A stretch of DNA of 64,000 nt from an uncultured Methanobrevibacter sp. (GCA_900320515.1 ONSJ01000001.1:1-64000); one strand, 5' to 3'. Shown: positions 5,724-30,667, counted from the first letter of the stretch. The notes: generated from the letters alone by a model not told the origin. A program made the numbers and translations.

Positions 5724-5725
5724 TA

Positions 5726-5902: not shown

Positions 5903-5912
5903 GGGTGTTTTC

Positions 5913-6422: not shown

Positions 6423-6440
6423 ATTAAATGAGGTTTTATC

Positions 6441-6761: not shown

Positions 6762-6770
6762 GTGATTTAA

Positions 6771-6923: not shown

Positions 6924-6957
6924 ATTTTTTCAAATCTTTTTATTTCTTTTTTTATTT
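6922..6957 (+). terminator. Terminator after the ribosomal/RNA polymerase operon
   Basis: AGATTT (6922-6927) and AAATCT (6932-6937) form a six-base-pair hairpin with loop TTTC that overlaps the S27ae stop. Then come two long T-rich runs up to about 6957. T-runs are the known terminator signal in archaea; the hairpin may be incidental. Confidence 0.6.
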
Positions 6958-6992
6958 ATTTTATTTTCAATTATTTTTTAGAAGGGATTTTT

Positions 6993-10826: not shown

Positions 10827-10869
10827 TAATGTTTATACTTTGAGGAAACAAAACTATTAAGTGATTATT

Positions 10870-12752: not shown

Positions 12753-14642
12753 ATGACATCCTATGATGTTATGGAACTCATTAAACGTTCGGACAATCAA
12801 GAAGAAATAATTGATATAGCTCAAAATGATTCCGATTGGCATATCCGCCAATTTGCAGTTGCCTATATTGAAGATGATGAAGCATTAAAAGATATTTTAA
12901 TCAACGATTCCATTAATTCCGTATCCATTAAGGCTATGGAGCAGATCAGTGACATAGATTTTTTAATAGATGTCTGCTTGAACAATCCCTTTTCACATAT
13001 CCGTCTTGCAACTCTAAATAGGATAATCGATGAATCTCTGCTTTTACCGTCTGATTTAACAAGTCTTTTAAATGATGTTGCTTTAAATGACCCAAATGAA
13101 TTCATAGTTAAGCTGGCAGTTGAAAACACTAATTTTAATAATCCTGAAGTCATAATGGCCATTGCCGAGTCGGGGCATGATGTTGAAATCAGAAAATTGG
13201 CCGTTTCCAAAATCACTGATGAGAATGCTTTATCTGATTTTGCATTAAATGATTTAGATGTTTTCATACGCAGGGAAGCCATCTTAAACCCTAATTTATC
13301 TAATTTTGATATCCTGAGTGATGTGATAAGAAATGATGATGACGGATTCAATCGCCACTGGGCATGTGAAAAGATAACTGACAAGGATTATCTGGTCAAA
13401 CTAATTTTTAATAAGTTATTTTACCATCGTCTGGATGATTTGTCACTTAATTCTAATTTGAATTGTGAAGAGTACTTTAAAGAGGTTTATGAAACTTGTG
13501 GTGATGAGTATCATCGTCTTGTTTCGGCATATCTTATTCATGATGAAATCTATTTATCTAATATTGTTTTAAATGAATCTGATGATAAAATCCGACTACA
13601 GGCTATAAAAAACAAGCATTTTTCAAACCAGAAAATCTTAAAAGAATTGATTTTAAGTGAAGACGATTCGGAAATTGTTTTTTGTGCGATTTTAAAAATT
13701 AATGATGAAGATGCGCTGATAAATTATATCAAAAGACATTTGAATGATGACAAAGCCACCTTACAGACAATTTTGCAGGTTAATGATGTTGAATTGTTAA
13801 AGGAATTGTCACGGCATTTAAATCCAAAAATACGTCTTTATGCGATTAAATCATTTTCAAATAATTTCAAAGATGAATACAATTCCATTTTAAAAGATAT
13901 TGCTTTGAGAGATGAAAGCAAAAATGTATGTCTTGAAGCGACTGGGGCAATAACCAATCCTTATGATTTGATGGAGATAGCTGATAAAAATGATGATTGT
14001 GACATCAGAGCTTTGGCATTAAATCTCATTCCTGCTTCCAGATTATTGGATGGCTTTTTGTTTGTCCATAATTCAAATAGGCAATCACTGGACTTCAAGC
14101 AAAAGCTAAAATCATTGGCCTTAAATGAAAAGGATGATGAAATCAGGCATATTGCAATTTCCAAACTTGATGACAAGGAAACTTTAGACAGTATTGCTTC
14201 TCTTGAAAATGATGATTCTGAATTCGCCAAAAGAAGACTGGACTCTCTTTTTGAAGATATTAAGAGAATTGATAATGAGCTTCTACTTAAAAAACTAATT
14301 TCATCAAAAGACAGTGATGTTTCCTATATTGCTCAAAAGACATTTGATGACTGGATTGACAGCCAGAAGCACATAGATGAAATCAGCCGGATTTCAGACA
14401 TTGAAAAACTGAAATCAATTATTAATGAAGACTTTAATTATTATGTTAGATGTGAAGCTGAAGGAAGGCTTGAAAGGTTACTGTTCAACATCAGACTGGA
14501 TGAAATCAATGAGAAGTCAAATCAGGACAAATTGATTGATATAGTAAAAGACGAGACCTTTCCACTTGAAATTAGAAATAAGGCACTTTCAAGAGTCAAT
14601 GACCTTAAATTCAAGGAAAGCTATAAAATTTTGTTAGATTAA
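12753..14642 (+). CDS. Long HEAT-like repeat protein
   Basis: A 629-residue all-helical repeat protein. Units of about 25-35 residues recur from start to end, with a consensus like NDxDxxIRxxAxxxIxDExxLxxIA. Examples: NDSDWHIRQFAVAYIEDDEAL, NPFSHIRLATLNRI, GHDVEIRKLAVSKITDENAL, NDLDVFIRREAI, DCDIRALALNLIP. This is the pattern of HEAT/PBS-lyase scaffold proteins, which bind other proteins. No catalytic motif or membrane helix is seen. It follows the 160-residue gene by six bases and converges with a TPR gene. The partner is unknown; the signalling genes at 17-29 kb are candidates by proximity only. Confidence 0.72.
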   Translation: MTSYDVMELIKRSDNQEEIIDIAQNDSDWHIRQFAVAYIEDDEALKDILINDSINSVSIKAMEQISDIDFLIDVCLNNPFSHIRLATLNRIIDESLLLPSDLTSLLNDVALNDPNEFIVKLAVENTNFNNPEVIMAIAESGHDVEIRKLAVSKITDENALSDFALNDLDVFIRREAILNPNLSNFDILSDVIRNDDDGFNRHWACEKITDKDYLVKLIFNKLFYHRLDDLSLNSNLNCEEYFKEVYETCGDEYHRLVSAYLIHDEIYLSNIVLNESDDKIRLQAIKNKHFSNQKILKELILSEDDSEIVFCAILKINDEDALINYIKRHLNDDKATLQTILQVNDVELLKELSRHLNPKIRLYAIKSFSNNFKDEYNSILKDIALRDESKNVCLEATGAITNPYDLMEIADKNDDCDIRALALNLIPASRLLDGFLFVHNSNRQSLDFKQKLKSLALNEKDDEIRHIAISKLDDKETLDSIASLENDDSEFAKRRLDSLFEDIKRIDNELLLKKLISSKDSDVSYIAQKTFDDWIDSQKHIDEISRISDIEKLKSIINEDFNYYVRCEAEGRLERLLFNIRLDEINEKSNQDKLIDIVKDETFPLEIRNKALSRVNDLKFKESYKILLD

Positions 14643-16590: not shown

Positions 16591-17391
16591 ATGTCTGAGT
16601 TAAAATATATGGATTTATCCTTGGATGAGATTCTAAAAAATCTTCAAATGTGCAAATCAGTTGTGGCAAACCAGGAAGAGGCTATCTGTAAGTTTAGAGA
16701 TGTCATTTTAACAGCTTCAAACAAGCGTGTGGTGTCCGAAAGAAAAACTACAATATTTCTTGCAGGCGCCGGCAGATCAGGTTTTGTTGCAAAATCATTT
16801 GCAATGAGATTGATGCATTTAGGATTTTATGTATATGTATTCAATGAAACAATAGCTCCTCCAGTCAAGGATGGGGACATAATTATCATTATTTCAAAAT
16901 CCGGTAAATCCAACTCTATAACCCAAATCGTTGAAGATTCCAAAATTGACAATGTCAAGTTTTTAGCTGTATGCGGCAATACAAAAAGTGACCTTGCCCA
17001 AAAGGCTGATGCAAGGATTGTTATTGATTCCCTTCCTCAAACTTTAGTAAGACTTGAGGATTATGATGTTAAAGAGTTTATGGAAACTTTGCCTGGCGCT
17101 TTAATAAACTTTGAAAGTGATGAAAGTGTTAGAAGTAAACTTGAAGCGCTTCCTAAAAAAGCAGCAGATTTAAGTGATAACAAACTGTGGAAGGATATTG
17201 AAGATTTGCCTAGAGAAATTAGGGGAATCAGTAATATCTATCGTCCATTGGAATTGATTTTAATGGGAACTGCCTTTGAAATTTCCGCTTTAGTATTGCT
17301 TGATGCATTGGTTGCCGAATTAATGCAAAGTTTAAACCTGCGTGAAAAAGACTTAAAAGCTTTTCATGATGTGTTAAGTAGTTCAATTTAA
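16591..17391 (+). CDS. hxlB: SIS-domain protein, 6-phospho-3-hexuloisomerase-like, with an insertion
   Basis: A 266-residue sugar-isomerase-fold protein. The SIS core is clear: FLAGAGRSGFVAKSFAMRLM at about residues 55-75 and DIIIIISKSGKSNSI at about 96-110. The end, NLREKDLKAFHDVL, matches the family. Phosphohexuloisomerases convert hexulose-6-phosphate to fructose-6-phosphate and serve ribose-phosphate supply in archaea. Typical members have about 180-200 residues; this one holds an extra segment of roughly 70 between the SIS halves (about residues 145-215). Whether it keeps the usual activity is unclear. It is 29 bases upstream of the FHA gene, perhaps one transcript. Confidence 0.75.
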   Translation: MSELKYMDLSLDEILKNLQMCKSVVANQEEAICKFRDVILTASNKRVVSERKTTIFLAGAGRSGFVAKSFAMRLMHLGFYVYVFNETIAPPVKDGDIIIIISKSGKSNSITQIVEDSKIDNVKFLAVCGNTKSDLAQKADARIVIDSLPQTLVRLEDYDVKEFMETLPGALINFESDESVRSKLEALPKKAADLSDNKLWKDIEDLPREIRGISNIYRPLELILMGTAFEISALVLLDALVAELMQSLNLREKDLKAFHDVLSSSI

Positions 17392-17420: not shown

Positions 17421-18215
17421 ATGGATGATTCAAAGACAGTTATTCTTGAGAAGGAAGATTCAAGAATTCTATCAACTAAATTAGCGGCTGTTAATAATAA
17501 TGTCAGATTTTCAATTCTGGAAATCTTAAGGGATTTTGAAAGAGTAAACAAAACAAGTGAGGGCACATTTAAAAAAGAGCCATTGTATTCCCGTGAAATC
17601 AATTCAATTCTTTTAAACAATTACAACATTAATATTACTACTCAAATGTTGGGCCAACACTTGAAGCAGCTTGTCGAATCAGACATGATTGAAGAGCTAA
17701 GTGTTAAAAAAGAGGTTCCTAATAAAATAGGCCGCAGAAGTGTAAAAGGATTTACATTAAAGGAAGATGCATTCGATGAACTTTTTTTAGATGTGAGTTT
17801 CCTGTCCGATGAGCTTCTTACATTTTTCGATTTATATAAATCCAATCAAAGATTTTCCGATGGCGAACATTGCGTTTTAACTATTTTCAATGGAGAGGAT
17901 AAGGGTAAAACATTTAAGGTTCACAAGGATGAGACAATCTTGATTGGAAGAAAAGCTAATTTTAATGCTAATGACTTAGCTTCATTTACCATACTTTTAG
18001 ATAATAGCTATTCTACAGTTTCCAATGTTGGCAAACCCCATTTAAAGTTATTCCATAAGGATGACGGATGGTATATATTGGATGAATGCAGTTCCAATGG
18101 AACATACATTGCCGATAGAAAAGTCCCAACAGGAATTGAAACAAAGCTTAAGGCAAATTCATTTTTGAAATTATCTAGAGGTAATGGCGGAGCAGTCATT
18201 TATTGTTCATTTTAA
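17421..18215 (+). CDS. Winged-helix plus FHA-domain regulator
   Basis: A 264-residue protein. Residues 1-20 form an unstructured N-terminus with TVILEKED at 6-13. Residues 25-120 look like a winged-helix DNA-binding domain (VRFSILEILRDFERV, then ITTQMLGQHLKQLVESDMIEEL and a basic GRRSVKGFTL wing). Residues 150-264 form a forkhead-associated domain: LIGRKANF (GR 176-177), a later Ser and His in SNVGKPHLKL, and CSSNGTYI (N226, G227). FHA domains bind phosphothreonine peptides. The neighbours are a Ser/Thr kinase and a phosphatase, so it is probably a phosphorylation-responsive regulator. ATG 17421 behind AGAAGG. Confidence 0.82.
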   Translation: MDDSKTVILEKEDSRILSTKLAAVNNNVRFSILEILRDFERVNKTSEGTFKKEPLYSREINSILLNNYNINITTQMLGQHLKQLVESDMIEELSVKKEVPNKIGRRSVKGFTLKEDAFDELFLDVSFLSDELLTFFDLYKSNQRFSDGEHCVLTIFNGEDKGKTFKVHKDETILIGRKANFNANDLASFTILLDNSYSTVSNVGKPHLKLFHKDDGWYILDECSSNGTYIADRKVPTGIETKLKANSFLKLSRGNGGAVIYCSF

Positions 18216-18234
18216 TTAGATTTTAAATCTAATT
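18214..18234. repeat. 21-bp perfect palindrome at the FHA/kinase junction
   Basis: AATTAGATTT (18214-18223) and AAATCTAATT (18225-18234) are exact inverted arms around one T. The element overlaps the last base pairs of the FHA-gene stop and ends one base before the kinase ribosome-binding site GGTGG (18236-18240). It could be an operator for the winged-helix protein, or an RNA hairpin that hides the kinase ribosome-binding site. Confidence 0.6.
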
Positions 18235-18244
18235 GGTGGTTTGA

Positions 18245-21200
18245 GTGGACTTTGATGGGGCAAAACAGCTAATTGAAGAATTTTTTAATGGCAAATTTGA
18301 AGTTAAAAAATTTCTTGGAGAGGGATCATTTGCAAAGGTTTATTTGGTAAACCATAACTATTTAGATACTTTAATGGCTATGAAAATCATTAAGGAGCCA
18401 TTGAGTCTGTCAACCAATAAAAAAGAAGTTTTTCATGAAGTCACACTTGCATGTCAGCTAAGGCATGAAAATATCATAAGCATTTATGATGCCGCCGAAA
18501 TAACTAATTTTGAAGATGGAAAAAACCATGCTTACTTTGTAATGGAATATGTCTCAGGAGGGGATTTGGAGCAGTTTTTAAATTCATATGCTGAGATTAA
18601 CAGGTTCATGCCAATTGGAGTCAGTTTGGATTTAATAAAACAGATTTTAAATGGATTAAACACTCTTCACTCAGCAAATCCTCCAATAATCCATCGTGAT
18701 TTAAAACCCAATAATGTTTTGCTCAGTTTCAATGAATGCGGCGACATTATCACTAAAATATCCGATTTTGGTTTTGCAAAAGAGATTACCACTACCATTT
18801 CAGACATTGATATAGCAGGCACACGGCCATATATGGCTCCTGAAATCTTCAGTAAAAATGTATCGGCCAGAAGTGATATTTATGCTGTCGGCGTCATGTT
18901 TTATCAGTTGCTGACAAATATGTATCCGTATGATGTTGGAAAATATACTAATGAAGAGCTGATTGATTTAAAGCCATGGTCTGATGAATTAAAACCTCCA
19001 AGCTATTATAATGGACATGTTTGTGAATTGTTGGATGAAATCGTTTTGAAATGTCTTGAATTCAATCCGGATAAACGGTATGGTGATGCAAATGAGCTGC
19101 TTTTGGATGTAAATAATGCCATTGATGAGTATGAGGCAGTTCGGGACTTATCCCCAACCAGTGCCGGTTATGATTCTGATGATGATTATCGTGAATACAT
19201 TGTTAACGATTCAATAGAGGGGGCCTTTAGGCTTGCTAAATGCGAAAATAAACTTGATGACGCCATTGAAATATTGGAAAATGAAGTTTTGAAGGATTAT
19301 GAGGTTCGTAAATTTTACTCTGAAACACTCAGAATTTGGAAATCAAAACGCCCTGATTTGAAATTAATCTCTAAGGCGTTCACCGTTAATCTTAAAGGGA
19401 GGAATTATCATTTGTCTTGCAGCTTGTTGGCAGAAGCAATGGCATATAATCCCTCAATTAAAAGGAAATATTCTCATTATGTCGATTTATGGGAGATTTT
19501 TATAGATTTGGAAAGACAGGGGAGTCTGTTTAAAAGTGTGGAGATGCTTGAAAAGTTGATGGAATCAAATGTTGAGATTCAAGAACTTTATAGGAATATT
19601 CTCCCAACGCTTAAGACATGCTCGGTTGATGAAATTGTTATAGAGGCAATCCGTTTGGTAGGTTTGAATGATTTGTCTGAAGGCGCTAATCTGATGGAGT
19701 TTGCAGTTATTTTGGATGCTGACATTAGGAAAAATTATTCATATAAACTGTCACTATGGAAACAGAATATGGTGATGCATTTCACGCAATCCGATGAAAT
19801 TAAAGCTGATGCAATAGATTATGCCATAGATTTGGGAACAACAGACTCTGTGATATCCTATTATAACGATGGAAATCCTGTTGTCATTAAAAATCACAGA
19901 ACAGGAGAAGAATTCACTCCATCTGCAGTGTTGGTTGATGAAAATGATGATGTGGAAGTTGGTAAAAATGCAAAAGATGCTCTATTGGTGAACACGAATA
20001 ATGCAGTTAGCGAATTTAAGCATAACATGGGCTTTTCAATTCCGTTTAAGTTTGAAAATTCATCCAGGATGATGTTTCCGGAAGAACTGTCTGCCGAGGT
20101 CTTAAAAGATTTAAGAGTGTCAGTTTATGATGAAACAGGGGTAAATATTGAACATGCAGTAATCTGCGTTCCTGCAAATTCCAATCCAATCAAGATAAGG
20201 GCGGTTAATGATGCTGCCGAACTTGCAGGATTCAGATCACATAGTCTTGTATTGGAGCCGATTGCAGTTGGTCTTGCTTATGGCCTTCAAAGGACTAATG
20301 GAATTTGGATGATTTATGATTTGGGCGGAGGAACATTCAATGTAAGCATAATTGCAAATAGCAATGGGGAACTTGAAAAAATTGCAACCGACGGACTGGA
20401 TAATCTTGGCGGAAATTCATTTGATTGGAAGATTGTCAATGACCTTTTCAGACCTAAAATATCCAGCGATTTGAATCTGGATGATTTTAGAAGGGACAAT
20501 CCGAAATTTGTGGATGTTTTTGCAAAACTTAAGGATGCTGCCGAAAATGCTAAATTGGATTTAACCAAAACTGATAACACAGACATATGCGTCAATAATC
20601 TTTTTGATGGTTATGACTTTACATATAATTTAACCAGAGATGAGTTCAAGGAAATCATAGAGTCCTTGGTCAAATATACTTTTAATGTGTCAAGAAATCT
20701 GTTAGACCAGTGTCATCTGGATGATGGGGATATCGATAAGATTATTCTTGTTGGCGGTTCATCGCTCAGTCCAATCGTACAGGAATTCATACGGGATGAG
20801 TTTGATATTGAAATGGAATCGAGCATTAATCCGCTGACTGTAGTGTCCAAAGGTGGGGCAATTTATGCAGGAAATCTTGAAAAACCACATATCGACATTA
20901 AAAAGGAAGCATTATCAGTTCTTTTAGACCATAAAAATGGAATTTTAAGGGGAAAGGTATTTTCAAACGACTTGAAATCCTCATATTTGGGATATGATAT
21001 TGAAATTGAATCAATCAGAGTTCCTTTAAAAATTGACGGATGGTTTTATCTTAGAAATCCTCCCCGAAAGTATGGCATCAGGATTTATGAAAATGGTGAA
21101 TTGCGAGAGCTTGATGAGAAATCGCCTGGCTGTGTTGATGGGGAAATAATGAATATCCCATTTTTGAATGGGGAATTTGGCATAAAGAGTGATATTGATT

Positions 21201-21760
21201 TAAGGGAATTGATGAACCAATATTCAAATTTACTGAATGAAATCGAATATCTTAATGAATATTCATTAATAAATGAGTATGAGGTCCAAAAATATATCGA
21301 AACCCTGCTTGAGATAACTCAAAGGGATAAAATTGCACTAAACCATGCTAAAATTTACATTGATTATTTGGAATCCATTGTTGAAAAGGCAAAAGGGGAT
21401 TTGGAATATTCGATGCTTTTGAAAAATGTAGCCAAAAAGATTGAAATGGTAAAAAGCAAAAATCTGTTTGACATAGGGGATATTGGCAATGATTTGGAAA
21501 ATATGGATTTAAATGAACTTAAAGACATTCATGCTTCTTTGGTTGAAATATATGTGTCATTAAATAGAAACGATGTAATCACCAATTGCTTTTTTAATCT
21601 AAAGCTTGAAGGAATTTACACAAACAATGAAAAACTGGCAGACGAGTTAATTGAAAAAGCGCATGATGCATTAAATCTCAATGATTTTGAAGCTTTATTT
21701 GACATGGTCAATGCATTATTTGAGCTCGATGAACGTGAGGACAGTAGGGAGATTTTATGA
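18245..21760 (+). CDS. Ser/Thr protein kinase fused to an Hsp70-type domain
   Basis: A 1171-residue protein. The kinase domain covers residues 20-295: glycine loop LGEGSFAKVYLV (24-35), Lys47 in AMKII, Glu65 in the C-helix, HRDLKPNN (150-157), DFG (174-176), GTRPYMAPE (192-200). All catalytic residues are present. Residues 310-520 are helical, perhaps TPR-like. An Hsp70 ATPase domain follows from about 527: AIDLGTTDSV, VICVPANSNP (about 640), YDLGGGTFNV (692-701), and VGGSSLSPIVQEF (about 840). The C-terminal 270 residues hold a degenerate beta-rich part and long helices. GTG start at 18245 behind GGTGG. It ends in ATGA overlap with the next gene. Confidence 0.88.
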   Translation: MDFDGAKQLIEEFFNGKFEVKKFLGEGSFAKVYLVNHNYLDTLMAMKIIKEPLSLSTNKKEVFHEVTLACQLRHENIISIYDAAEITNFEDGKNHAYFVMEYVSGGDLEQFLNSYAEINRFMPIGVSLDLIKQILNGLNTLHSANPPIIHRDLKPNNVLLSFNECGDIITKISDFGFAKEITTTISDIDIAGTRPYMAPEIFSKNVSARSDIYAVGVMFYQLLTNMYPYDVGKYTNEELIDLKPWSDELKPPSYYNGHVCELLDEIVLKCLEFNPDKRYGDANELLLDVNNAIDEYEAVRDLSPTSAGYDSDDDYREYIVNDSIEGAFRLAKCENKLDDAIEILENEVLKDYEVRKFYSETLRIWKSKRPDLKLISKAFTVNLKGRNYHLSCSLLAEAMAYNPSIKRKYSHYVDLWEIFIDLERQGSLFKSVEMLEKLMESNVEIQELYRNILPTLKTCSVDEIVIEAIRLVGLNDLSEGANLMEFAVILDADIRKNYSYKLSLWKQNMVMHFTQSDEIKADAIDYAIDLGTTDSVISYYNDGNPVVIKNHRTGEEFTPSAVLVDENDDVEVGKNAKDALLVNTNNAVSEFKHNMGFSIPFKFENSSRMMFPEELSAEVLKDLRVSVYDETGVNIEHAVICVPANSNPIKIRAVNDAAELAGFRSHSLVLEPIAVGLAYGLQRTNGIWMIYDLGGGTFNVSIIANSNGELEKIATDGLDNLGGNSFDWKIVNDLFRPKISSDLNLDDFRRDNPKFVDVFAKLKDAAENAKLDLTKTDNTDICVNNLFDGYDFTYNLTRDEFKEIIESLVKYTFNVSRNLLDQCHLDDGDIDKIILVGGSSLSPIVQEFIRDEFDIEMESSINPLTVVSKGGAIYAGNLEKPHIDIKKEALSVLLDHKNGILRGKVFSNDLKSSYLGYDIEIESIRVPLKIDGWFYLRNPPRKYGIRIYENGELRELDEKSPGCVDGEIMNIPFLNGEFGIKSDIDLRELMNQYSNLLNEIEYLNEYSLINEYEVQKYIETLLEITQRDKIALNHAKIYIDYLESIVEKAKGDLEYSMLLKNVAKKIEMVKSKNLFDIGDIGNDLENMDLNELKDIHASLVEIYVSLNRNDVITNCFFNLKLEGIYTNNEKLADELIEKAHDALNLNDFEALFDMVNALFELDEREDSREIL

Positions 21761-21903
21761 AAAACCGGAATTCCATTGAACCGACAGTGATACTCAATAA
21801 AGAGGATGAGTGTGGATTTTTAGATTTTAATAATCCTGATGATTTATCACAAGTCATCAAGGCACTCAAAAAACTAATGAAAGAAGAGGGTTCTGATGTG
21901 TGA
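21757..21903 (+). CDS. 48-residue protein sharing an N-terminal motif with the FHA protein
   Basis: The ATG (21757) overlaps the kinase TGA, and the TGA (21901-21903) overlaps the phosphatase start (21896), so it is tightly coupled on both sides. The sequence begins MKNRNSIEPTVILNKED; residues 10-17 (TVILNKED) match residues 6-13 of the FHA protein (TVILEKED) at seven of eight positions. The rest, from FLDFNNPDDL on, is acidic then a lysine-rich helix. No known family. The overlap pattern and the shared motif argue that it is a real gene, likely a phosphorylated adaptor or substrate. Its threonine 10 fits an FHA-type pT-x-x-L site; that is inference. Confidence 0.68.
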   Translation: MKNRNSIEPTVILNKEDECGFLDFNNPDDLSQVIKALKKLMKEEGSDV

Positions 21904-22663
21904 TAGGTTAATTGAGTTGCCGAACCATGGTCGTCTGATTGTCGTAACTGATTTGCATGGCAATTTTGATGATTACGCTCATTATTTGAATTTGTGGGAT
22001 GAAACAGACCCTGATTTTCACATTGTCTTTTGTGGGGATTTGATTCATGGCCTTGATGAGGATACAGACGGGTCCGTTGAGATTCTTGACGATGCAATCG
22101 CCAGGTCAGAAAAATATTCCAATTTCCACACTTTGCTTGGAAATCATGAGTGGGCACATATCACAAAGAGGGAAATCTACAAAAATCAAAGGCCTTTGCT
22201 TTCGGGATTTGAAAATCTCATTTCATATAGGAAAGGATGCATTGAACCTCACCTCACAGATTATATCAAATTCTTTAAGACAATGCCCTATTTTGTCAAG
22301 ACTGCTAATGGAATGTTCATTTCTCATTCTGGACCTTCGGACAAGGTCAGATCAATTGAAATATTTAATGAGCTTATTGACAGCGGATATTCCTGTCCAA
22401 TTTTGCATGACTTTTTGTGGAATAGGCATGACCGAGCAACTGACTATACAAAAGATGATGTCGATAGTTTCCTTGATATTGTCGGCTCAAAAGTTATGGT
22501 TGTGGGCCACAGTCCGGTAGAGTCTTATAAGGTATTTGCAAACCAGATTATCATGTCTTCAAGCTTTGCCACAAAAGTAAAAACATATTTGGATATAGAT
22601 TTGGCAATGGAGATTGATGACATCAAAGACGTGCAGAAGCAGCTGAAGTTCATAATTGAATGA
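21896..22663 (+). CDS. PPP-family Ser/Thr protein phosphatase (metallophosphoesterase)
   Basis: A 255-residue phosphatase. The metal-binding motifs are in order: DLHGN (19-23), GDLIHG (47-52), GNHEW (82-86), later SHSGP (about 144) and VVGHSP (about 210). This is the PPP pattern, GDxHG-GDxxxxG-GNHE, in slightly altered form (DLHGN). It would remove phosphates placed by the kinase upstream. The ATG overlaps the preceding 48-residue gene by eight bases. It lacks a signal peptide, so is cytoplasmic. Dinucleoside polyphosphate hydrolases of the same fold cannot be excluded; the context favours a protein phosphatase. Confidence 0.85.
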   Translation: MCDRLIELPNHGRLIVVTDLHGNFDDYAHYLNLWDETDPDFHIVFCGDLIHGLDEDTDGSVEILDDAIARSEKYSNFHTLLGNHEWAHITKREIYKNQRPLLSGFENLISYRKGCIEPHLTDYIKFFKTMPYFVKTANGMFISHSGPSDKVRSIEIFNELIDSGYSCPILHDFLWNRHDRATDYTKDDVDSFLDIVGSKVMVVGHSPVESYKVFANQIIMSSSFATKVKTYLDIDLAMEIDDIKDVQKQLKFIIE

Positions 22664-22731
22664 TTCATTCAAAATCAATTGAAAATACTTATTTAAAAAA
22701 AGATTATAAAGTAATATAGGAGGTGTTAAAC

Positions 22732-24990
22732 ATGAGCGAAAACAACTTGAAGCCATATATCGATAATTTTTTTGATAGTTTAGTATTGTATGATGATAAA
22801 TACAATGGCCACAATTATAAAGGCCTTTTAAAGGCAGGCATTGATGTATTTTTAGAAACAGAGAATTCATATAATGCATATGAGATATACCAAACATTTT
22901 TCATGATCTATCAAATCACAGCAGAAGACAAGTCCGAAAAATCATCAGAGCAAAGCATTGTAAACGAACCTAACACCATTCTTGATTTGGTTAAGATAAT
23001 GAAGAAGTATGAAGAGAATACTGGGGATTTAATTGAAAGACAGAGGGACCATTTCATACACTCCGTAAATGTTTTCCTTTTGGGTCTTGCAGTTTATGCC
23101 CAAAATAAGAGCTACCGTGAAGCCTTTGAAACATACATTCTTAAAAGTCCATATAAAAAGTATTATAGGATTGGCAAAAAGTTATCCCATGAGGAATTTT
23201 TCTATCGCTGGGGAGTGGCATCACTGTTCCACGATATAGGATATCCTGTTGAAATTATAGGAAAGCAGTTGAAAAAGTTCATAAATGATGATGTCAAATC
23301 TATTTCAAGCACTTACGGTGCGGATACAGCAATTGACTTTAAGGATTTCAATGAATTTAACACCATTATAAAAATAGACCATGATTTCGCTGATGAATAC
23401 ACTAAAAATTATCCTGAAGCCAAATTTTTAAATCTGTTCAAGCCAACAGACATTATGGCCCATAAGATTGCAACCGATTTTTCAGATGTTAATGTAAACA
23501 AGGTCGCAAAGCACCTTGACGGTTTTGTAGATGTAATGGGTGAAAATGGATTTATAGACCATGGATTCTTCTCAGCAATTCTGGTTATGAACTCCTATGG
23601 TTATTTAATTCAGAAGTTTGCAAAAAAACACGACTTTTTCTTCTATCCGATAGTGGACAGTGCCACAGCCATTCTGCTTCATAACTATTATAGAAATGTG
23701 CTGCAAAAAAATCCGTTTAACTTGCCGGCACTTCATCCTTTACAAAGTCCTATTGCATTTCTGCTGATTTTATGTGATGAGCTTCAGGAATGGAACAGGC
23801 AACCTTTCGGAATTAAAGATAAGAAAAGAAGCCATGTGAATGATTTGAAATTGATGATTGATGATTCAAACATGGAAGTTGACTATATCGTTAAAAGCGG
23901 TTCAATGGGTCTTGGATTTTCCGAAGACAAAGAGGAACTGATTAATCATGTCCTTTCAATACATAGCATTTTTGATAGAAACTTCCTGATTTACACAAAT
24001 GTGCAGAAAGATGACAGCATCATGAGGGAAATCGTCAAATCAGAAATCCCGGCACCATCCACATTACTTAGAAATGTGGAAAAATTGGCGCTGGAAATAC
24101 ATAAGCAGTATATTGAAACCGCAACCAAGGAGTATAATGAGAAAAAGGATAAGGGTGAAATTGATGACGACGCCGAAAGGGACTTTAAAGAAAAAACCAA
24201 ACCTTTTGACCAATTGTCTTCACACCTTAAACTGGCCAACATTCGCCAGGCAAGGTCCATTCCTAAAAAATTGAACATGATTGGATGTGAACTTGCAGAT
24301 TTGTCCGATAAGCGTGAAGAAATAACCAAGTTTTCCGAAGAGGAAGTAATTGATCTGGCCATTTATGAGCATGATGAATGGTGTGAAGAAAAAATAGGTC
24401 AGGGATGGACTTATGGGGAAGTCAGGGATGATGATAATCTCATCCATGATTGCCTTGTGCCATGGGATGACCTCACACCTGAAGTGCAGCAATATGATAT
24501 TGACCCTGTTGAAAACATTCCTAATCTTGTTAAAAAAATTGATTTGAAGATTGTCAGAAGCAAAATCAGACTCCTGACCATTGAAATGCATAAGTTTTAC
24601 CAACAGAAAAATGGAGGAACAGATGACTTTGATGACCTGCCTGAGTATATTAAGTATTCAAACTATAAGCAGGCTAATTTCCTGGTTAAAATATTGGGTG
24701 AACTTGGATATGATGTGGTTGATTCCCAATCAAAAGGTGAGGCAATTGAATATTTCGATGAGGATGCACTGGAATATTTGGCCAAAAGGGAACATAATGC
24801 ATGGTATAAACTTAAAATCAACTTGGGTTGGAGATTTGCACCTGTTCGTGATGAAAACAGAAAACTAAATCCTAACTTAGTGGAATGGGACGCTTTGAAT
24901 GTTAAAAACAAGGATGACAATAAGAGAACCTTCAAAAACTTGCCTCAAATGTGTAAGAATGTAGATTTAAAGATTGTTAGGAATAGTTAA
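22732..24990 (+). CDS. HD-domain protein with two C-terminal RyR domains, paralogue 1
   Basis: A 752-residue protein. An HD-type phosphohydrolase core lies at about residues 100-350: DHFIHSVNV (His110), SLFHDIGYP (His167-Asp168), DHGFFSA (His277), LLHNYY (His317), CDELQEW (Asp349). Residues 498-610 and 640-750 form two units, each a helical segment with an N..QA pattern followed by a RyR domain (YEHDEWCEEKIGQGWTYG at 546-562; REHNAWYKLKINLGW at 686-700). HD proteins cleave phosphomonoesters or cyclic nucleotides; RyR domains are named from ryanodine receptors and occur in prokaryotic signalling proteins. ATG 22732 follows a full AGGAGGTG; the upstream GTG is part of that site. Confidence 0.8.
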   Translation: MSENNLKPYIDNFFDSLVLYDDKYNGHNYKGLLKAGIDVFLETENSYNAYEIYQTFFMIYQITAEDKSEKSSEQSIVNEPNTILDLVKIMKKYEENTGDLIERQRDHFIHSVNVFLLGLAVYAQNKSYREAFETYILKSPYKKYYRIGKKLSHEEFFYRWGVASLFHDIGYPVEIIGKQLKKFINDDVKSISSTYGADTAIDFKDFNEFNTIIKIDHDFADEYTKNYPEAKFLNLFKPTDIMAHKIATDFSDVNVNKVAKHLDGFVDVMGENGFIDHGFFSAILVMNSYGYLIQKFAKKHDFFFYPIVDSATAILLHNYYRNVLQKNPFNLPALHPLQSPIAFLLILCDELQEWNRQPFGIKDKKRSHVNDLKLMIDDSNMEVDYIVKSGSMGLGFSEDKEELINHVLSIHSIFDRNFLIYTNVQKDDSIMREIVKSEIPAPSTLLRNVEKLALEIHKQYIETATKEYNEKKDKGEIDDDAERDFKEKTKPFDQLSSHLKLANIRQARSIPKKLNMIGCELADLSDKREEITKFSEEEVIDLAIYEHDEWCEEKIGQGWTYGEVRDDDNLIHDCLVPWDDLTPEVQQYDIDPVENIPNLVKKIDLKIVRSKIRLLTIEMHKFYQQKNGGTDDFDDLPEYIKYSNYKQANFLVKILGELGYDVVDSQSKGEAIEYFDEDALEYLAKREHNAWYKLKINLGWRFAPVRDENRKLNPNLVEWDALNVKNKDDNKRTFKNLPQMCKNVDLKIVRNS

Positions 24991-25015
24991 CATTTTTTCC
25001 TTCCTTTTTTCAAGG

Positions 25016-25034
25016 ATTTAAATCAATACTTAAA
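25016..25034 (+). promoter_or_regulatory. Shared upstream element, copy B
   Basis: ATTTAAATCAATACTTAAA, 46 bases before the ATG of the second HD-RyR gene. It matches the element before the FHA gene at 18 of 19 positions. The first HD-RyR gene has a looser form, AAATCAATTGAAAATACTTA, near 22683-22702. ATTTAAAT or CTTAAA could serve as the TATA box. Confidence 0.35.
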
Positions 25035-25080
25035 CTTATTTAATATTAATTCAATATAACTAGTATATATAGGTGGGATT

Positions 25081-27513
25081 ATGGCCGAGGATAATACTAA
25101 AACTAAAAAGTCTAATTTAAGTCAATATGTCGAAAATTTCTTTAATATGATTGAACTTTATGACGATAAAATCGCATTTTATGACAATCAGGATAATCTA
25201 CATTATCATGATTATAAAGGTATTTTAAAAGCAGCTATTGATGTTTTTTTAGAATATGAATCATCCTACACAGCTTATGAAGTTTATGAAACCTTTTTGA
25301 TGATTTATCAAATCACTCCTGAAGATAAAAGTTCAGTCAATGAAAGCAGTTCTAATAGCCTTATAAGTGAACCCAACACTCTTCTAGATTTAGTTGATAT
25401 AATGAGATTGTATGAGGAAAAGACAGGGGATTTAATTGATAGACAGAGGGACCATTTCATTCATTCAGTCAATGTATTCATTTTAGGTTTGGCCATTTAT
25501 GCCCAAAATAAAAACTATCGTAACAGCTTTGAGAAGTATATCCTCAAAAATAAGAATTATACTAAATATTATAGGGATGAAAACAACAACTTTTCCCATG
25601 AGGAATTTCTATACCGCTGGGGTGTTGCATCCCTGTTCCATGATATAGGTTATCCTTTTGAAATCATCGGAAAACAGTTAAATAAAGTCATTGATGATGG
25701 GATTAAATCCATTTCTGTTAGTTATGATGTTGATGCACATTTTGATTTCGCTGATTTCAATGAATTCAACTCCATTACAAAGATATATCCTTATGATTAT
25801 GCCGAAGGGTTTAGAAGCAAGTATACCCGTACAAAGGTTCTGGATTTATTCAAACCTACCGATATCATGGCCCATAAGATTGCTTTGGACTTCCAGTTCG
25901 ATGATGATTATTTCAAAAGACTTGTTAAGCATTTGAATAGGTTTGTCAAGTATATGAATGAGATTGGCTTTATAGACCACGGATATTTCTCAGCGATTCT
26001 TGTATTGAACTCCTATGGTAAATTAATTCAAAAATATGTTGAAAAGAATAAGGATTTCTTCTTTTATCCGATTGTAGACAGTGCTACAGCTATCTTATTG
26101 CATAATTATTACAATAAAACGCTACAAGGTGATTCATTTAAGCTTGGCAGGATGGATCCTGATGATTCTCCTATTGCATATCTATTAATATTCTGTGATG
26201 AGCTTCAGGAATGGAATAGGCGACCATATGGTATTTTGGACAAACAGAAAAATCATGTAAATGACTTTAAAGTCCATATTAATGACACATGCTTCAATAT
26301 TAGATACATTTTAAAAAATGGTTCTATGGGTCTCGGATTTGAAGAGGATAAGGAAAACTTCATCAAAAATGTCTTAAATGTTAGAAAGATATTTGAAGGA
26401 TTTACAATCATCCCTGATGTGGATTTAGATGATATTCAAAGGGATATTTTGATGTCTGATATTCAGGCTCCGGATGTGCTGATGAGGAATATCGAAAAGC
26501 TGGCCGTTGAAGTAAATAGGCAATACAATGAAACTCAAAAAGCAAAGCTTGAAGAGGCCGAAAGTGAAAAAGATGAGGAAAAGATTCGAAAATACACCAA
26601 AAAAGTTAAAGATACCGAGAACTTTGAGGGTTTAAGTTCAAGCTTCAAGATGTCAAATATCCGTCAAGCCAAGTCCATTCCAAAAAAATTAAGCATGATC
26701 GGTTGTGAGATAGCTCACAAAACTGATGAAGAAAAGGCGGATAAAAGAGACTTTAAGGTCAAATTGAATGAAATTGTAGCGGAACTGGAAAGGACAGATG
26801 ATAACTATGATAGTCGTCAGGAAATCCTTGAGCGTTCAGGCAAGGTTGTAAGAATCTTGAGATTTAGTGAGGATGATGTTGACGATTTGGCTGTCTATGA
26901 ACATGAAAGCTGGTGTGAAGAAAGAAAAGGAACCGGCTGGGTTTTTAATGATGTAGATGACTCTAAAAATAAGCGCAGTAGCAGTTTAGTTGAATGGGAT
27001 GCGCTTGATGAGTATACAAAAGAGTTGGATAAGGAAGCCATTAGAAATATTCCTAACCTTTTGGATAAGATAGGCTTAAAGGTCATCAGAAGCAGGCTTC
27101 GCTCATTGACTTATAAAATGAATCAGTTTTATGAAAACGGTAAGCTTGATGGTGATTCCAGTGGTGAATTGGAATTTAATAATTTGGATAAGCATATCAA
27201 GTTTTGCAATTTTAAGCAAGCGGACCACTTGGTTAAAATATTAAAACATAAGGGATATGAATTGGTGCCTTTGAATGATTCAGAGGATCCTATCGAGAAG
27301 TTTTCCAAAGAGGAAATCGAACATTTCGCTAAAATGATGCATGAGAGCTGGTATAAGCTTAAGCTTAATTTGGATAGAACCGGCGGTAAGAATTTCGTGG
27401 AATGGAAGGATCTTAATGAAAATGTTAAGAAAGCGAACAGGAATACTTTCAAGTATCTTCCGGAAATGTGTGCGGATGAGTTCGTTGGATTAAAAATAGT
27501 TAAAAATGATTAA
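25081..27513 (+). CDS. HD-domain protein with two C-terminal RyR domains, paralogue 2
   Basis: An 810-residue paralogue of the preceding gene, similar along its whole length. HD motifs: RDHFIHSVNV, SLFHDIGYP, DHGYFSA, LLHNYY, CDELQEW. RyR unit one: YEHESWCEERKGTGWVF; unit two: MMHESWYKLKLNLDR, a shortened copy that lacks part of the loop after the tryptophan. Differences: a charged insertion of about 50 residues before the first RyR (with EIVAELERTDDNYD) and a longer linker. Adjacent full-length paralogues often form hetero-oligomers. Its own promoter region is likely (91-base gap). ATG at 25081 behind AGGTGGGAT. Confidence 0.8.
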   Translation: MAEDNTKTKKSNLSQYVENFFNMIELYDDKIAFYDNQDNLHYHDYKGILKAAIDVFLEYESSYTAYEVYETFLMIYQITPEDKSSVNESSSNSLISEPNTLLDLVDIMRLYEEKTGDLIDRQRDHFIHSVNVFILGLAIYAQNKNYRNSFEKYILKNKNYTKYYRDENNNFSHEEFLYRWGVASLFHDIGYPFEIIGKQLNKVIDDGIKSISVSYDVDAHFDFADFNEFNSITKIYPYDYAEGFRSKYTRTKVLDLFKPTDIMAHKIALDFQFDDDYFKRLVKHLNRFVKYMNEIGFIDHGYFSAILVLNSYGKLIQKYVEKNKDFFFYPIVDSATAILLHNYYNKTLQGDSFKLGRMDPDDSPIAYLLIFCDELQEWNRRPYGILDKQKNHVNDFKVHINDTCFNIRYILKNGSMGLGFEEDKENFIKNVLNVRKIFEGFTIIPDVDLDDIQRDILMSDIQAPDVLMRNIEKLAVEVNRQYNETQKAKLEEAESEKDEEKIRKYTKKVKDTENFEGLSSSFKMSNIRQAKSIPKKLSMIGCEIAHKTDEEKADKRDFKVKLNEIVAELERTDDNYDSRQEILERSGKVVRILRFSEDDVDDLAVYEHESWCEERKGTGWVFNDVDDSKNKRSSSLVEWDALDEYTKELDKEAIRNIPNLLDKIGLKVIRSRLRSLTYKMNQFYENGKLDGDSSGELEFNNLDKHIKFCNFKQADHLVKILKHKGYELVPLNDSEDPIEKFSKEEIEHFAKMMHESWYKLKLNLDRTGGKNFVEWKDLNENVKKANRNTFKYLPEMCADEFVGLKIVKND

Positions 27514-27540
27514 ATTATAAGTAATTTAATCTCTTTTTTT
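27510..27540 (+). terminator. Terminator after HD-RyR paralogue 2
   Basis: TTAAATTA (27510-27517) and TAATTTAA (27522-27529) make a perfect 8-bp stem with loop TAAG, followed by TCTCTTTTTTT. Confidence 0.6.
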
Positions 27541-27626
27541 ATATTTTATTTTTTTTAATGTATTTTTGTATAATATTTTGATTATTAAGTTAAATTTTTG
27601 TTAATTGGGGATTTTTATGTTTAAGT

Positions 27627-27639
27627 ATCAATATTTAAA
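27627..27639 (+). promoter_or_regulatory. Shared upstream element, copy C
   Basis: ATCAATATTTAAA lies 38 bases before the first channel-like gene. The 13-base core ATCAATA-N-TTAAA (written here with T as N) is also found in copies A and B. TTTAAATAA at 27634 would suit a TATA box with a start near 27660. Confidence 0.35.
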
Positions 27640-27676
27640 TAATTATTTTTACATAAATAATAAATGGTGAATTTTA

Positions 27677-28456
27677 GTGGATATAGTCAATCAACCAATT
27701 TTTCAATTTTCAGTAGAATTAATTATTTTCATTGTTTTAACTGCTGTTGGTGTATTTATTTTGGATAAAATTAGGAACAGCGACAACAGATATCTCAATC
27801 CTCAGGAATTTTTGCCGAAAGATGAGATTCATACGTTAAAACAGGTATTTTATCTTATTTTGATGAGCCTTTGTTTTGTCACTGTTTTATATACATTAAT
27901 CTCAACAAAGTCAGATATACCTTATCTTTCATTTTTTGATATATGTTTATCATTATATATTGCAATAACATTGGATAAGTCATCTCTAAAGAATAAGATT
28001 TTACTGATAATAATAGTTCCGTTCGGATCAATGAGTTATTTCTTTTTTGGATATACATTGGTCGGTTTAGTTGACTTTATTCATGTTCCGGTATTTTTGT
28101 ACTTTGTCAAGTACTATTATAACAAATTCAATTATTATACGGAATCAAATGGTTTGTCCCTGGCAATACTTTTGCTGTTTGTCATTATATTATTCAGTTT
28201 TTTCCTAACTCAAGTGACTGAAGGTAAAAATCCTTTGGATGCCCTGGTAATGGTTTCCAATGCATTCACAAGTAATGGATATGCCGTTTTAGGCAACTCA
28301 ATTCCTGGAAAAATCAATAGCCTATTCCTTGTTTGGGGAGGTTATGTTATTTCTGGTGTAGCCACAGCTTCTTTAACCGCAGCTATCTTGATTAAGCATT
28401 TCAACAAAAGGGTTGAGAAGCTGGAAAGAATAATTGAAGAGGGAAGTGATGAATGA
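27677..28456 (+). CDS. Potassium-channel-like membrane protein, subunit 1
   Basis: A 259-residue membrane protein. Hydrophobic helices lie at about 11-30, 57-77, 84-98, 107-127, 129-146, 160-180 and 215-240. Between the last two is a re-entrant pore-like segment: NPLDALVMVSNAFTSNGYAVLG (residues 185-206 in part). It lines up with the potassium-channel filter region (TxGYG) but reads TSNGYAVLG (198-206). A short charged cytoplasmic tail follows. GTG start at 27677 behind GGTGA. It overlaps a paralogue by four bases, so a heteromeric channel is likely. Ion selectivity cannot be told; the filter is not canonical. Confidence 0.65.
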   Translation: MDIVNQPIFQFSVELIIFIVLTAVGVFILDKIRNSDNRYLNPQEFLPKDEIHTLKQVFYLILMSLCFVTVLYTLISTKSDIPYLSFFDICLSLYIAITLDKSSLKNKILLIIIVPFGSMSYFFFGYTLVGLVDFIHVPVFLYFVKYYYNKFNYYTESNGLSLAILLLFVIILFSFFLTQVTEGKNPLDALVMVSNAFTSNGYAVLGNSIPGKINSLFLVWGGYVISGVATASLTAAILIKHFNKRVEKLERIIEEGSDE

Positions 28457-29253
28457 TGGATGAGATGATAATGACATTATTGATTATTGTGGGCATGGTT
28501 TTACTTTCTATAGTAATCTTTTCCGTTCTGGTTCAGATTTGCAAGTTTGTCTTAATAAAACTAAAATCATCTGAGTCACTTAAAAATTCAAGACTTTTCA
28601 ATCCTCTGGAATATTTCCCTGAAGAGGAGATATCGACCATAAGACAGGTCTTTTATTTGGTAATTATAGTCCTGATTGTTGTTGATATCCTGTATTCAGT
28701 TGTCGGATGGCATGAAAATTTGATAATCTTTTCTGTCTTTGATATTCTTTTATCCCTGCTATTTGCGATAAATGTTAAGTGGGGTTCTTTAAAAAATAAG
28801 ATACTGTTATTCGGATTAATCCCGTTGGGTTCACTGGGTGTGCTGTATTTGGGAGAATATTATGTTATAATTGATGCAATACATTTAATAACCCTTGCAT
28901 ATTTCATTAAGGTCTACTTTAACAAATTCGTCGAATATACTGAGACCAACAGTTTAGGAATAACAATAATACTGTTGTTTTCAATTGTTTTCATTAGTTT
29001 CTTATTCACTATTGTTGTTGAAGATGTTTCTCCTCTTGATTCATTGAACATGGTTTCCAATGCATTTACAAGTAATGGTTATACCGTTTTAGGAAAAACT
29101 GGGCTGGGTAAAGCCGATGCAATATTTTTGGTTTGGAGCGGTTTTTTACTGTCCTGTGTAGGTACGGCCACTTTGACAGTTTCCCTTATAGTGAAACATG
29201 TTGACAGAAAATTTGATAAGTTGGAAGATTTGGCCAAGAAAAAGAAAAATTAG
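28453..29253 (+). CDS. Potassium-channel-like membrane protein, subunit 2
   Basis: A 266-residue paralogue of the preceding protein. The same layout: several membrane helices, RQVFYLVIIVLIVVDILY after an N-terminal helix, then LDSLNMVSNAFTSNGYTVLG (residues 195-214 in part) as pore segment, and a final helix with a basic tail (VKHVDRKFDKLEDLAKKKKN). The filter-like TSNGYTVLG (206-214) is kept in both copies, so it is under selection. ATG 28453 overlaps the previous stop (ATGA). No RCK/TrkA domain is attached; gating may come from neighbouring HD-RyR proteins (inference). Confidence 0.65.
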   Translation: MMDEMIMTLLIIVGMVLLSIVIFSVLVQICKFVLIKLKSSESLKNSRLFNPLEYFPEEEISTIRQVFYLVIIVLIVVDILYSVVGWHENLIIFSVFDILLSLLFAINVKWGSLKNKILLFGLIPLGSLGVLYLGEYYVIIDAIHLITLAYFIKVYFNKFVEYTETNSLGITIILLFSIVFISFLFTIVVEDVSPLDSLNMVSNAFTSNGYTVLGKTGLGKADAIFLVWSGFLLSCVGTATLTVSLIVKHVDRKFDKLEDLAKKKKN

Positions 29254-29299
29254 TTCTTTTTAATAATCCTTAAATATTTTTTTCCATATACTATTAGTG

Positions 29300-30667
29300 A
29301 TGCAGGCTAACGATAATATCGAATCAATCAGAGGAAATCCCCGCAGTGCCATTAACAAATTGGCGTTTCCTACAATATTTTCACTGCTTTTAATGTTTTT
29401 AAACAATCTTATTGATAGTTTTTGGGTCTCAGGCATCAATGCAGATGCTCTTGCCGATTTAGGTTTTATTTCGCCATTGTATCTTGTGATAATTGGCATG
29501 GGCAGTGGTGTGGGTGCAGGTGCCAATTCATTGATTTCAAGATATGTCGGTGCTCAAAGGATTGATGATGCAAATAATGCAGTTATGCACTCAATAATTA
29601 TAACAGTTGTCGTTTCACTTATAGTTTTAATGATAGGTATTTTCTTTTTAGATGATTTGGTGATATTGTTGGGTGCAGGTAGCGTCAGCACATATTGCCT
29701 AAGTTATGGCCAAATCATCTTTTTGTTGAATATTGTCTTTCTGGCACCCAATGTTGCCGCAAGCATCTTTAGGGCGGAAGGTGATGTGGCACGTGCGACA
29801 AACCCATTGATCTTGACATCTGTATTTAACATGATTCTGGATCCTGTTATGATATACGGACTTGATTTGGGCATATTCGGAGCGGGACTTGCGACAGTTT
29901 TGGCATCATTTTTAGGATTCCTTCTGATGTTTTACTGGATATATGTTAAAAGAGACACATTTTTCCAGTTCAAATTCTCAAATTACAAGCGTGAATTGGG
30001 GATATATAAGGAAATCCTTGTGGTTTCACTTCCGGCCTCAACAGAAGAGATAATATTTGCCCTGGTTGCAATTATCCTTAACTATCTTATTATAGTGACT
30101 GCAGGAGTTGCTGAAGTGGCTGCATTCACCATCGCATGGAGATTCATAACAATCGCATTCATTCCAGCTATGGCAATAGGAATTGCGACAATAACCGTTT
30201 CGGGAATAGCTTATGGGGCAAAAAATTGGAAAAATTTCAATGAAACAATCAAATACTCGACATTGTTAGGTTTGGCGATTACAATTTCAATCTGTGCATT
30301 GTTTTTCATATTCGCATACCCTCTTTGCGATTTATTCAACATTCAGGCAGGCAGTCCCGCATTGGTGAGCCGTTCTGCGGAAATATTGAAGTTACTGGCG
30401 TTCTATAATTTTCTGATATCCTTGGGGGCAACTGCAGCCTATACCTATCAGGGTGTTGGCTCCGGTTTCAAGTCACTTGCAATAACAATTCTGCGGGAAC
30501 TGGTATTGAGCATTGCATTGGCCTATATTATGGGGATAACATTTAATATGGGCGTTTTTGGTGTGTATCTGGGAGCAATCATTGGAATGAATATGGGTTC
30601 AATTATAGGTTTTGTTTTTATTTGGATTTTTAATATGAAATTTAAAAAAAGAGTTTTTTCATCTTAA
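29300..30667 (+). CDS. MATE family efflux transporter
   Basis: A 455-residue multidrug and toxin extrusion family protein with about 12 membrane helices. Visible: the start NPRSAINKLAFPTIFSLLL, DSFWVSGINADALADLG, the second half LPASTEEIIFALVAIILNYL, and the late QGVGSGFKSLAIT loop. It probably exports cationic compounds in exchange for Na+ or H+. ATG 29300 directly follows an in-frame GTG. No ribosome-binding site is visible; a TATA-like TTAAATATT (29270-29278) would place the transcript start at the codon, so the mRNA may be leaderless. Confidence 0.9.
   Translation: MQANDNIESIRGNPRSAINKLAFPTIFSLLLMFLNNLIDSFWVSGINADALADLGFISPLYLVIIGMGSGVGAGANSLISRYVGAQRIDDANNAVMHSIIITVVVSLIVLMIGIFFLDDLVILLGAGSVSTYCLSYGQIIFLLNIVFLAPNVAASIFRAEGDVARATNPLILTSVFNMILDPVMIYGLDLGIFGAGLATVLASFLGFLLMFYWIYVKRDTFFQFKFSNYKRELGIYKEILVVSLPASTEEIIFALVAIILNYLIIVTAGVAEVAAFTIAWRFITIAFIPAMAIGIATITVSGIAYGAKNWKNFNETIKYSTLLGLAITISICALFFIFAYPLCDLFNIQAGSPALVSRSAEILKLLAFYNFLISLGATAAYTYQGVGSGFKSLAITILRELVLSIALAYIMGITFNMGVFGVYLGAIIGMNMGSIIGFVFIWIFNMKFKKRVFSS

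Follow-up and report, generated by a model that had tools for sequence, protein, structure and literature searches.

Eight genes lying side by side on the plus strand of a 64,000-nucleotide stretch of DNA from an uncultured Methanobrevibacter sp. (GCA_900320515.1 ONSJ01000001.1:1-64000, here called the window) are the subject of this analysis. They occupy positions 17,421 to 29,253 and encode an FHA protein, a Ser/Thr kinase fused to an Hsp70 ATPase domain, a 48-residue protein, a metallophosphatase, probably of the PPP type, two paralogous proteins with a predicted HD core and RyR domains (HD-RyR1 and HD-RyR2) and two membrane proteins (TM1 and TM2). All eight open reading frames were verified, and three overlaps of 4, 8 and 4 nucleotides were found (Table 1). 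The flanking SIS and MATE genes are members of the same gene run. An earlier note on this DNA had described eight co-directional genes, several of them overlapping; reading frames and domain scans agree with this list, and most of its names are correct. Of the FHA–winged-helix fusion proposed there, the FHA domain is confirmed by Pfam, whereas the HxlR-like winged helix gave only a score below threshold. The domain scans assigned no family to the 48-residue protein, TM1 or TM2.

Since relatives of the HD-RyR proteins stand right beside NAD-consuming antiviral genes of the TIR type in many bacteria (NAD, nicotinamide adenine dinucleotide), the island is probably one part of an immune signalling circuit and not a plain stress response. 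For the fuller reading, in which a phospho-threonine switch of the island feeds an immune output driven by NAD-derived nucleotides, we see about an even chance. Gene order, conservation, motifs, folds, the linkage of HD-RyR with TIR, ThsB, DUF4062 and SLOG genes, and fusion to TIR domains were observed directly.

Table 1. Genes of the island and of its borders (positions in the window)
Feature	Position	Strand	Evidence
Gene at left hotspot boundary	10861-12156	+	92-97% identity across genomes
SIS-domain sugar isomerase-like gene (HxlB-like)	16591-17391	+	Pfam SIS 2e-17; ends 29 nt before FHA gene
FHA protein; N-terminal helical/winged-helix-like part, TVILEKED (T6) in tail	17421-18215	+	PF00498 3.8e-6
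Ser/Thr kinase (residues ~12-297) fused to Hsp70 ATPase domain (~527-885)	18245-21760	+	Pkinase 2.1e-50, HSP70 1.1e-70
48-residue protein carrying TVILNKED; predicted to be bound by FHA protein as phospho-threonine ligand	21757-21903	+	20 homologues
Metallophosphatase, probably of PPP type (protein phosphatase or ApaH-like)	21896-22663	+	PF00149 (Metallophos) 5.9e-13
HD-RyR1; predicted HD core, RyR-A, RyR-B	22723-24990	+	RyR 2.6e-29; in-frame ATG at 22732 is an alternative start
HD-RyR2; paralogue of HD-RyR1	25081-27513	+	RyR 3.3e-14
TM1; membrane protein of likely cation-channel fold, NAFTSNGY loop conserved	27677-28456	+	fold search, conservation
TM2; paralogue of TM1, 4-nt overlap with TM1	28453-29253	+	42% identity to TM1, identical loop
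MATE transporter; right hotspot boundary	29297-30667	+	MatE 4e-38

HD-RyR proteins and their neighbours

The HD-RyR proteins of the window are 750-810 residues long. The RyR profile (PF02026; curated cut-off 27.4 bits) covers two stretches of HD-RyR1 with 101.7 bits and one stretch of HD-RyR2 with 53.3 bits. In the N-terminal half of HD-RyR1 we find H113, H170-D171, H280, H320 and D352 as predicted residues of an HD core. Each position of this H...HD...H...H...D pattern is kept in 52-53 of the 54 family members and in all aligned bacterial relatives, and the pattern appears to be that of HD phosphohydrolases. The AlphaFold (AF2) model of HD-RyR1 (predicted local distance difference test, pLDDT, 87) is largely helical in its N-terminal half and shows two RyR folds, and its best fold match in the PDB is Repeat12 of human RyR3. 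In the viral fold library RyR proteins alone were matched, with weak E-values, and the scan of viral contigs found no relatives of HD-RyR encoded there.

According to a report of 2026, RyR domains of phages (RyDEP) bind the 2'/3' cyclic ADP-ribose (2'/3'cADPR) immune signals or cleave them (PMC13232231). RyR-A of HD-RyR1 holds all four RyDEP ligand residues (H75, W78, H100 and D117) as H550, W553, H575 and D592, with identical spacing (H, W +3, H +25, D +42). In RyR-B the corresponding residues are H691, W694, N716 and N733; the equivalents of H100 and D117 are thus replaced, and most members carry N at these last two positions. HD-RyR2 has HW-S-D in RyR-A, without the H100 equivalent, and HW-G-N in RyR-B. 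The tandem pair resembles Repeat12 of human RyR3 and, in the residues of RyR-A, RyDEP; it differs in being cellular, in its fusion to an HD part and in the asparagines of the second repeat, and its ligand binding is a prediction. The earlier note had mentioned that RyR domains occur in signalling proteins and ion-release channels, and reading them as nucleotide-binding modules is supported here.

One scan of 84,980 genomes gathered relatives of HD-RyR from Chloroflexi, Peptococcaceae, Syntrophomonas, Coriobacteriia, Oscillospiraceae, Omnitrophota, Argoarchaeum and a Bathyarchaeal lineage; Bacillota and Actinomycetota are among the phyla covered. At 24 of the 32 HD-RyR loci outside Methanobacteriaceae a TIR, ThsB-TIR, DUF4062 or SLOG/DUF4231 gene lies within two genes and often overlaps. 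Such genes make up 22 of 60 adjacent genes against 1 of 176 at a distance of four or more genes (p=5e-14), a contrast that is inflated because some of the neighbours themselves went into the TIR and DUF4062 profiles. For this reason ten neighbours, nine of them outside the profile seeds, were tested again with Pfam, and all ten are TIR_2, ThsB_TIR or DUF4062. Pfam calls ThsB_TIR after the HD proteins of loci L129, L130 and L132, TIR_2 in L114, L119, L124, L133, L134 and L135, and DUF4062 in L103, L107, L110 and L113. The SLOG label is our own reading of an N-terminal motif; Pfam backs DUF4231 alone, and that in L048 alone. In L114 and L115 HD-RyR overlaps a TIR-LRR gene by 4 nucleotides, and L062 encodes a fusion of RyR with a WD40 protein. 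The earlier note had set the island apart from known kinase-based defence modules on the grounds that no nuclease or restriction gene is present, and with these neighbours and with the TIR fusions described below this contrast falls.

A report of 2026 identifies DUF4062 proteins as TIR-like NADases of antiphage defence (PMC13174449). Genes of the type DUF4062-NACHT-WD40/TPR adjoin HD-RyR in L103, L104, L107, L110, L111 and L113, which recalls the DUF4062 NADases (Swarozyc) and NACHT/WD40 STAND proteins; the genome from which the window comes has no DUF4062 gene. The likeness to Thoeris, in which a ThsB TIR protein makes cADPR or His-ADPR signals for a ThsA effector, is also evident. HD proteins occupy the place of the effector beside ThsB_TIR or TIR_2 genes, with overlaps often of 4-8 nucleotides, and HD proteins of about 400 residues without RyR are followed by ThsB_TIR genes with such overlaps in L125, L129, L130 and L132. 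In contrast to Thoeris, the effector would be an HD protein with or without RyR rather than a SIR2-SLOG, macro or caspase-like protein. None of the described ThsA domains (SIR2-SLOG, macro and others) is present in the eight window proteins. A TIR (ThsB) gene shares the locus in relatives such as L125, L128-L130 and L132, whereas the operon of the window lacks TIR and has kinase, FHA and PPP control genes instead.

Within Methanobrevibacter two TIR genes adjoin HD-RyR in L042, L045 and L072, and a DUF4062 gene does so in L057. The fusion TIR-TIR-HD-RyR is found in L037 (7937-11149), as an extra HD-RyR gene with two N-terminal TIR domains in an operon of the window's type, and in L067 (6843-10133); TIR-TIR-RyR is found in L071 (1154-2698). 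We surveyed 139 genomes of Methanobacteriaceae. TIR_2 is present in 25 of 33 genomes with HD-RyR and in 16 of 106 others (p=2e-10), and the association also holds among FHA-negative genomes (p=7e-4); related species are not independent in these and the FHA co-occurrence tests, and kinship is uncorrected. Among genomes without HD-RyR, FHA and TIR are not associated. In L057 a KAP-family NTPase gene (5569-7575) lies just upstream of the HD-RyR and DUF4062 gene pair.

Taken as a whole, we are fairly confident that HD-RyR belongs to an immune signalling pathway based on NAD-derived nucleotides. That it acts as the effector is less certain. It could instead be an off-switch, whose RyR domains capture or open the cyclic ADP-ribose signal and whose HD domain strips phosphates, so that TIR signalling ends and the host is protected from its own immunity. 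The RyR proteins of phages work in this manner, as sponges or as a glycosidase (PMC13232231), the H and D of catalytic type in RyR-A are kept in 51 of 54 members, and HD-RyR stays constant while its partner genes vary, with pairing to SLOG/DUF4231 without an adjacent TIR in L118, L120 and L121. However, the two-gene HD-ThsB loci L129, L130 and L132 show no other evident effector gene, which puts HD into the effector position, and the loss of the H100 and D117 equivalents in RyR-B fits sensing better than catalysis. We consider the off-switch unlikely and prefer HD-RyR as effector.

Phosphorylation genes and the membrane pair

In the 1171 residues of the kinase-Hsp70 protein the motifs of the kinase (GxGxFAxV, AMK with the catalytic lysine, HRD, DFG and APE) are unbroken, and so are those of the Hsp70 ATPase. 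The metallophosphatase keeps DLHG, GD (GDLIHG), GNHE, SHSG and GHSP; compared with the PPP signature (GDxHG, GDxxDRG, GNHE) the DRG is missing, and similarity to ApaH is weak (0.0042). T[VIL][VIL]LN is present in every one of the 20 homologues of the 48-residue protein. In the N-terminal tails of FHA homologues TxxI/L/V is found in 34 of 41, against a background of 23% in the remainder of the same proteins, and the two motifs of the window are TVILNKED in the 48-residue protein and TVILEKED in the FHA tail. Phosphothreonine with Ile or Leu at position +3 is a well-known type of FHA ligand, and GarA and OdhI each bind their own phosphorylated tail. From its sequence the common TVIL motif of the FHA tail and the 48-residue protein may thus form the basis of a phospho-threonine switch. 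The phosphorylation circuit proposed by the earlier note is supported, as kinase, FHA and phosphatase are intact and this motif is common to both proteins.

The GarA/OdhI-PknB switch is similar in the threonine motif of the N-terminal tail and in the adjoining Ser/Thr kinase gene. The FHA domain of the window differs in being joined to a winged-helix-like part, and here a separate 48-residue protein bears the same motif. A fusion of the same two domains, kinase and HSP70, has been described from Pirellula (PMC1262709); it is bacterial, and the paper does not describe its operon context. L149, L156, L165 and L166 each have one gene for the kinase and another for Hsp70 within a single cluster; the fusion in the window unites proteins encoded side by side in relatives. 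The unfused cluster spans 1-7755 in L149, 8398-14995 in L155, 3178-7292 in L156 and 2419-6277 in L165; in L149 and L155 it also carries an uncharacterised gene of 444-457 residues. It is probably an ancestral phospho-chaperone module. Nearby in L149 are genes that we take, from sequence features, to be ClpB-like AAA and GrpE-like. Membership of the island in the kinase defence systems MADS (Mad6), BREX (PglW) or PD-T4-6 was rejected because the PADLOC matches are limited to the kinase domain and partner genes were not found.

These chaperone genes bear on the proposal of the earlier note: under folding or membrane stress, phosphorylation would adjust the turnover of nucleotides and the gating of the channel, and the circuit would have no part in defence. 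The Hsp70 domain within the kinase protein speaks for it, as do the unfused relatives with their Hsp70 gene, and, in L149, the presumed ClpB-like and GrpE-like genes and a second conserved gene. The Hsp70 domain is the one piece of direct evidence for a stress trigger, even though chaperone genes are present in the unfused, probably ancestral cluster. Against the proposal, genes for TIR, ThsB, DUF4062 and SLOG accompany HD-RyR in distant phyla, and the island has a patchy distribution within a hotspot. A stress circuit without immune function seems quite improbable.

TM1 and TM2 are paralogous and have an invariant loop around FTSNGY. The model of TM1 is of moderate confidence (pLDDT 75), and its best 50 PDB matches are all cation channels; the pore part aligns with KcsA and NaK at a TM-score of 0.62-0.70, with weak E-values of 0.03-0.3. 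A selectivity filter of the TVGYG type was not found in either protein, TSNGY being in its place. The fold search on the TM1 model thus backs the former label "channel-like", and a channel fold is likely; because of the weak E-values and the non-canonical filter we carry the channel reading no further than the fold. Of the 139 genomes, 87 have the TM1 family; TM1 and TM2 frequently form an adjacent pair there, and frequently the other island genes are missing.

Recurrence and the insertion slot

The FHA protein is found in 37 of the 139 genomes, HD-RyR in 33, and both in 27. FHA thus accompanies HD-RyR in 27 of 33 genomes compared with 10 of 106 others (p=5e-15); the co-occurrence of families across genomes that the earlier note had proposed to look for is indeed observed. 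By the titles in the genome scan the relatives are Methanobrevibacter, many from ruminant samples, and the methanogen of the window is itself of rumen type. The order SIS, FHA, kinase/Hsp70, 48-residue protein, PPP, HD-RyR, TM1, TM2 is repeated in L037, L041, L052, L054 and L055, with MATE next in four of the five, and partial versions exist in many others. The SIS gene has the same position in L037, L038, L041, L050, L052, L054 and L055, and the recurring Methanobrevibacter operons contain one to four copies of HD-RyR. As the gene order is repeated in many other species, it is more than a chance assembly.

The gene at 10861-12156, which we take from sequence features to be O-acetylhomoserine sulfhydrylase-like, has an equivalent only 47-566 nucleotides away from MATE in L177, L178, L179 and L182. 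These empty sites in four relatives show that the whole region is an insertion slot. Between the two boundary genes at least five distinct cargo sets are found among relatives. In L048 the slot holds a DUF4231 gene with HD-RyR and TM1, in L138 FHA with a kinase without Hsp70 and the TM pair, in L157 the TM pair but neither kinase nor HD-RyR, and in L143 FHA without the remainder; in or near the slot are also FHA alone in L153 and FHA-kinase-TM pair in L138-L140. The modules of the island are thus linked and not obligatory: FHA/kinase, HD-RyR and TM pair each come and go on their own. The single fixed system of eight genes assumed earlier has to be given up, and an obligatory eight-gene system is ruled out by the variable cargo and the modules found apart.

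One could go further and regard the genes as independent cargo of one hotspot whose proteins do not act together. The partial sets just listed (FHA alone in L143 and L153, FHA-kinase-TM in L138-L140, HD-RyR with DUF4231 in L048, the TM pair alone in L157) and the wide spread of the TM1 family are what such a view would expect. On the other side, the same order with overlapping frames in many genomes and the association of FHA with HD-RyR argue for joint action, and we hold independent cargo to be rather unlikely.

In the window the hotspot also contains a 629-residue repeat protein, HEAT-like by eye (12753-14642), and in L036 a similar-looking gene of 599 residues (10090-11889) adjoins HD-RyR. 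A domain of 250-276 residues without Pfam match lies between PPP and HD-RyR in L055 (9860-10690), L054 (8502-9260) and L175 (2432-3229), and in L037 (11181-14246) it is fused to HD-RyR.

A possible mode of action

For the coupling of the switch to the immune output we suggest the following steps. The kinase-Hsp70 protein would sense stress, probably as unfolded or foreign protein that is bound by or displaced from the Hsp70 domain. The kinase could then phosphorylate the TVIL threonine of both the 48-residue protein and the N-terminal tail of the FHA protein. Like GarA and OdhI with their tails, the FHA domain would bind the tail of its own protein, or else the 48-residue peptide. How the FHA protein binds DNA or its partners may change as a result, and the PPP enzyme could reset the switch. 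The output would be the two HD-RyR proteins, whose RyR domains might bind a signal of the ADP-ribose type. This signal would come from TIR-type enzymes encoded elsewhere in the genome, which in relatives are adjacent or fused to HD-RyR. In the ligand-bound state the HD domain might hydrolyse a nucleotide, and the channel-fold pair might change the permeability of the membrane. Control of HD-RyR by kinase, FHA and PPP in the operon of the window is suggested by co-conservation and gene overlap; we also infer the ligand, the substrate of the HD domain, the phosphorylation partners and an antiviral role of the island.

Several points weigh against this model, apart from the limits of the neighbour profiles and the kinship of the genomes given above. 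There is no TIR gene in the operon of the window, the two TIR genes of the source genome are on another contig (C37), and 8 of the 33 HD-RyR genomes, some of them incomplete assemblies, have no TIR match. The HD identity is backed by residues and weakly by profile: the Pfam HD profile makes no call in the window proteins (PF01966 reaches at best E=0.028, in 8 of 42 relatives), a profile search has RyR structures alone among the matches listed, a PDB sequence search with the HD part gave nothing relevant, and RyR domains fill the matches listed in the PDB fold search of HD-RyR1. Since six of eight assayed phage RyR homologues bound the signal without cleavage, and homologues of high conservation are among those that only bind (PMC13232231), activity is not readable from the residues. 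The FHA/kinase, HD-RyR and TM modules are found without one another as well, so any wiring of one to another is conjectural. The TIR genes on C37 are two adjacent genes (L163:7884-9835) and the only TIR_2 matches of the source genome; they are a possible source of the nucleotide signal in trans.

More broadly, we put forward, as a tentative proposal, that the HD-RyR proteins form a class of immune effectors, as yet without a name and widespread in bacteria and archaea, gated by NAD-derived nucleotides, that HD-ThsB and HD-RyR-TIR/DUF4062 are new types of TIR signalling, and that in Methanobrevibacter this output is under kinase-chaperone Ser/Thr phosphorylation. Our literature searches found no published description of the island operon or of HD-RyR; work on TIR systems outside their reach possibly lists HD effectors already, in which case the novelty would drop. 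The link of RyR domains to cyclic ADP-ribose immune signals dates only from 2026 and was made in phage proteins, which have the domain in common with animal channels. HD-RyR is a cellular RyR family genetically tied to TIR-type NADases across phyla, and offers a concrete candidate host protein for the reading of cyclic ADP-ribose-type signals by RyR. Archaeal immune output may further be under eukaryote-like phosphorylation control; if the model is true, a TIR-type pathway is governed by a eukaryote-like kinase, a phosphopeptide reader and a phosphatase, and is tied to a cation-channel pair.

Two other arrangements were seen in the relatives. Loci of only two kinds of gene, HD and one or two ThsB_TIR genes which overlap or abut, are L129:9998-12216, L130:936-2584, L132:1660-3322, L125:4715-6341 and L128:3243-4909; possibly these are a Thoeris-like type with an HD effector. 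Directly after HD-RyR, L108 (6937-8778) and L102 (6839-8458) encode a protein with hydrophobic N-terminal segments, TrkA_N and a C-terminal RyR domain, a candidate nucleotide-gated channel with a RyR sensor.

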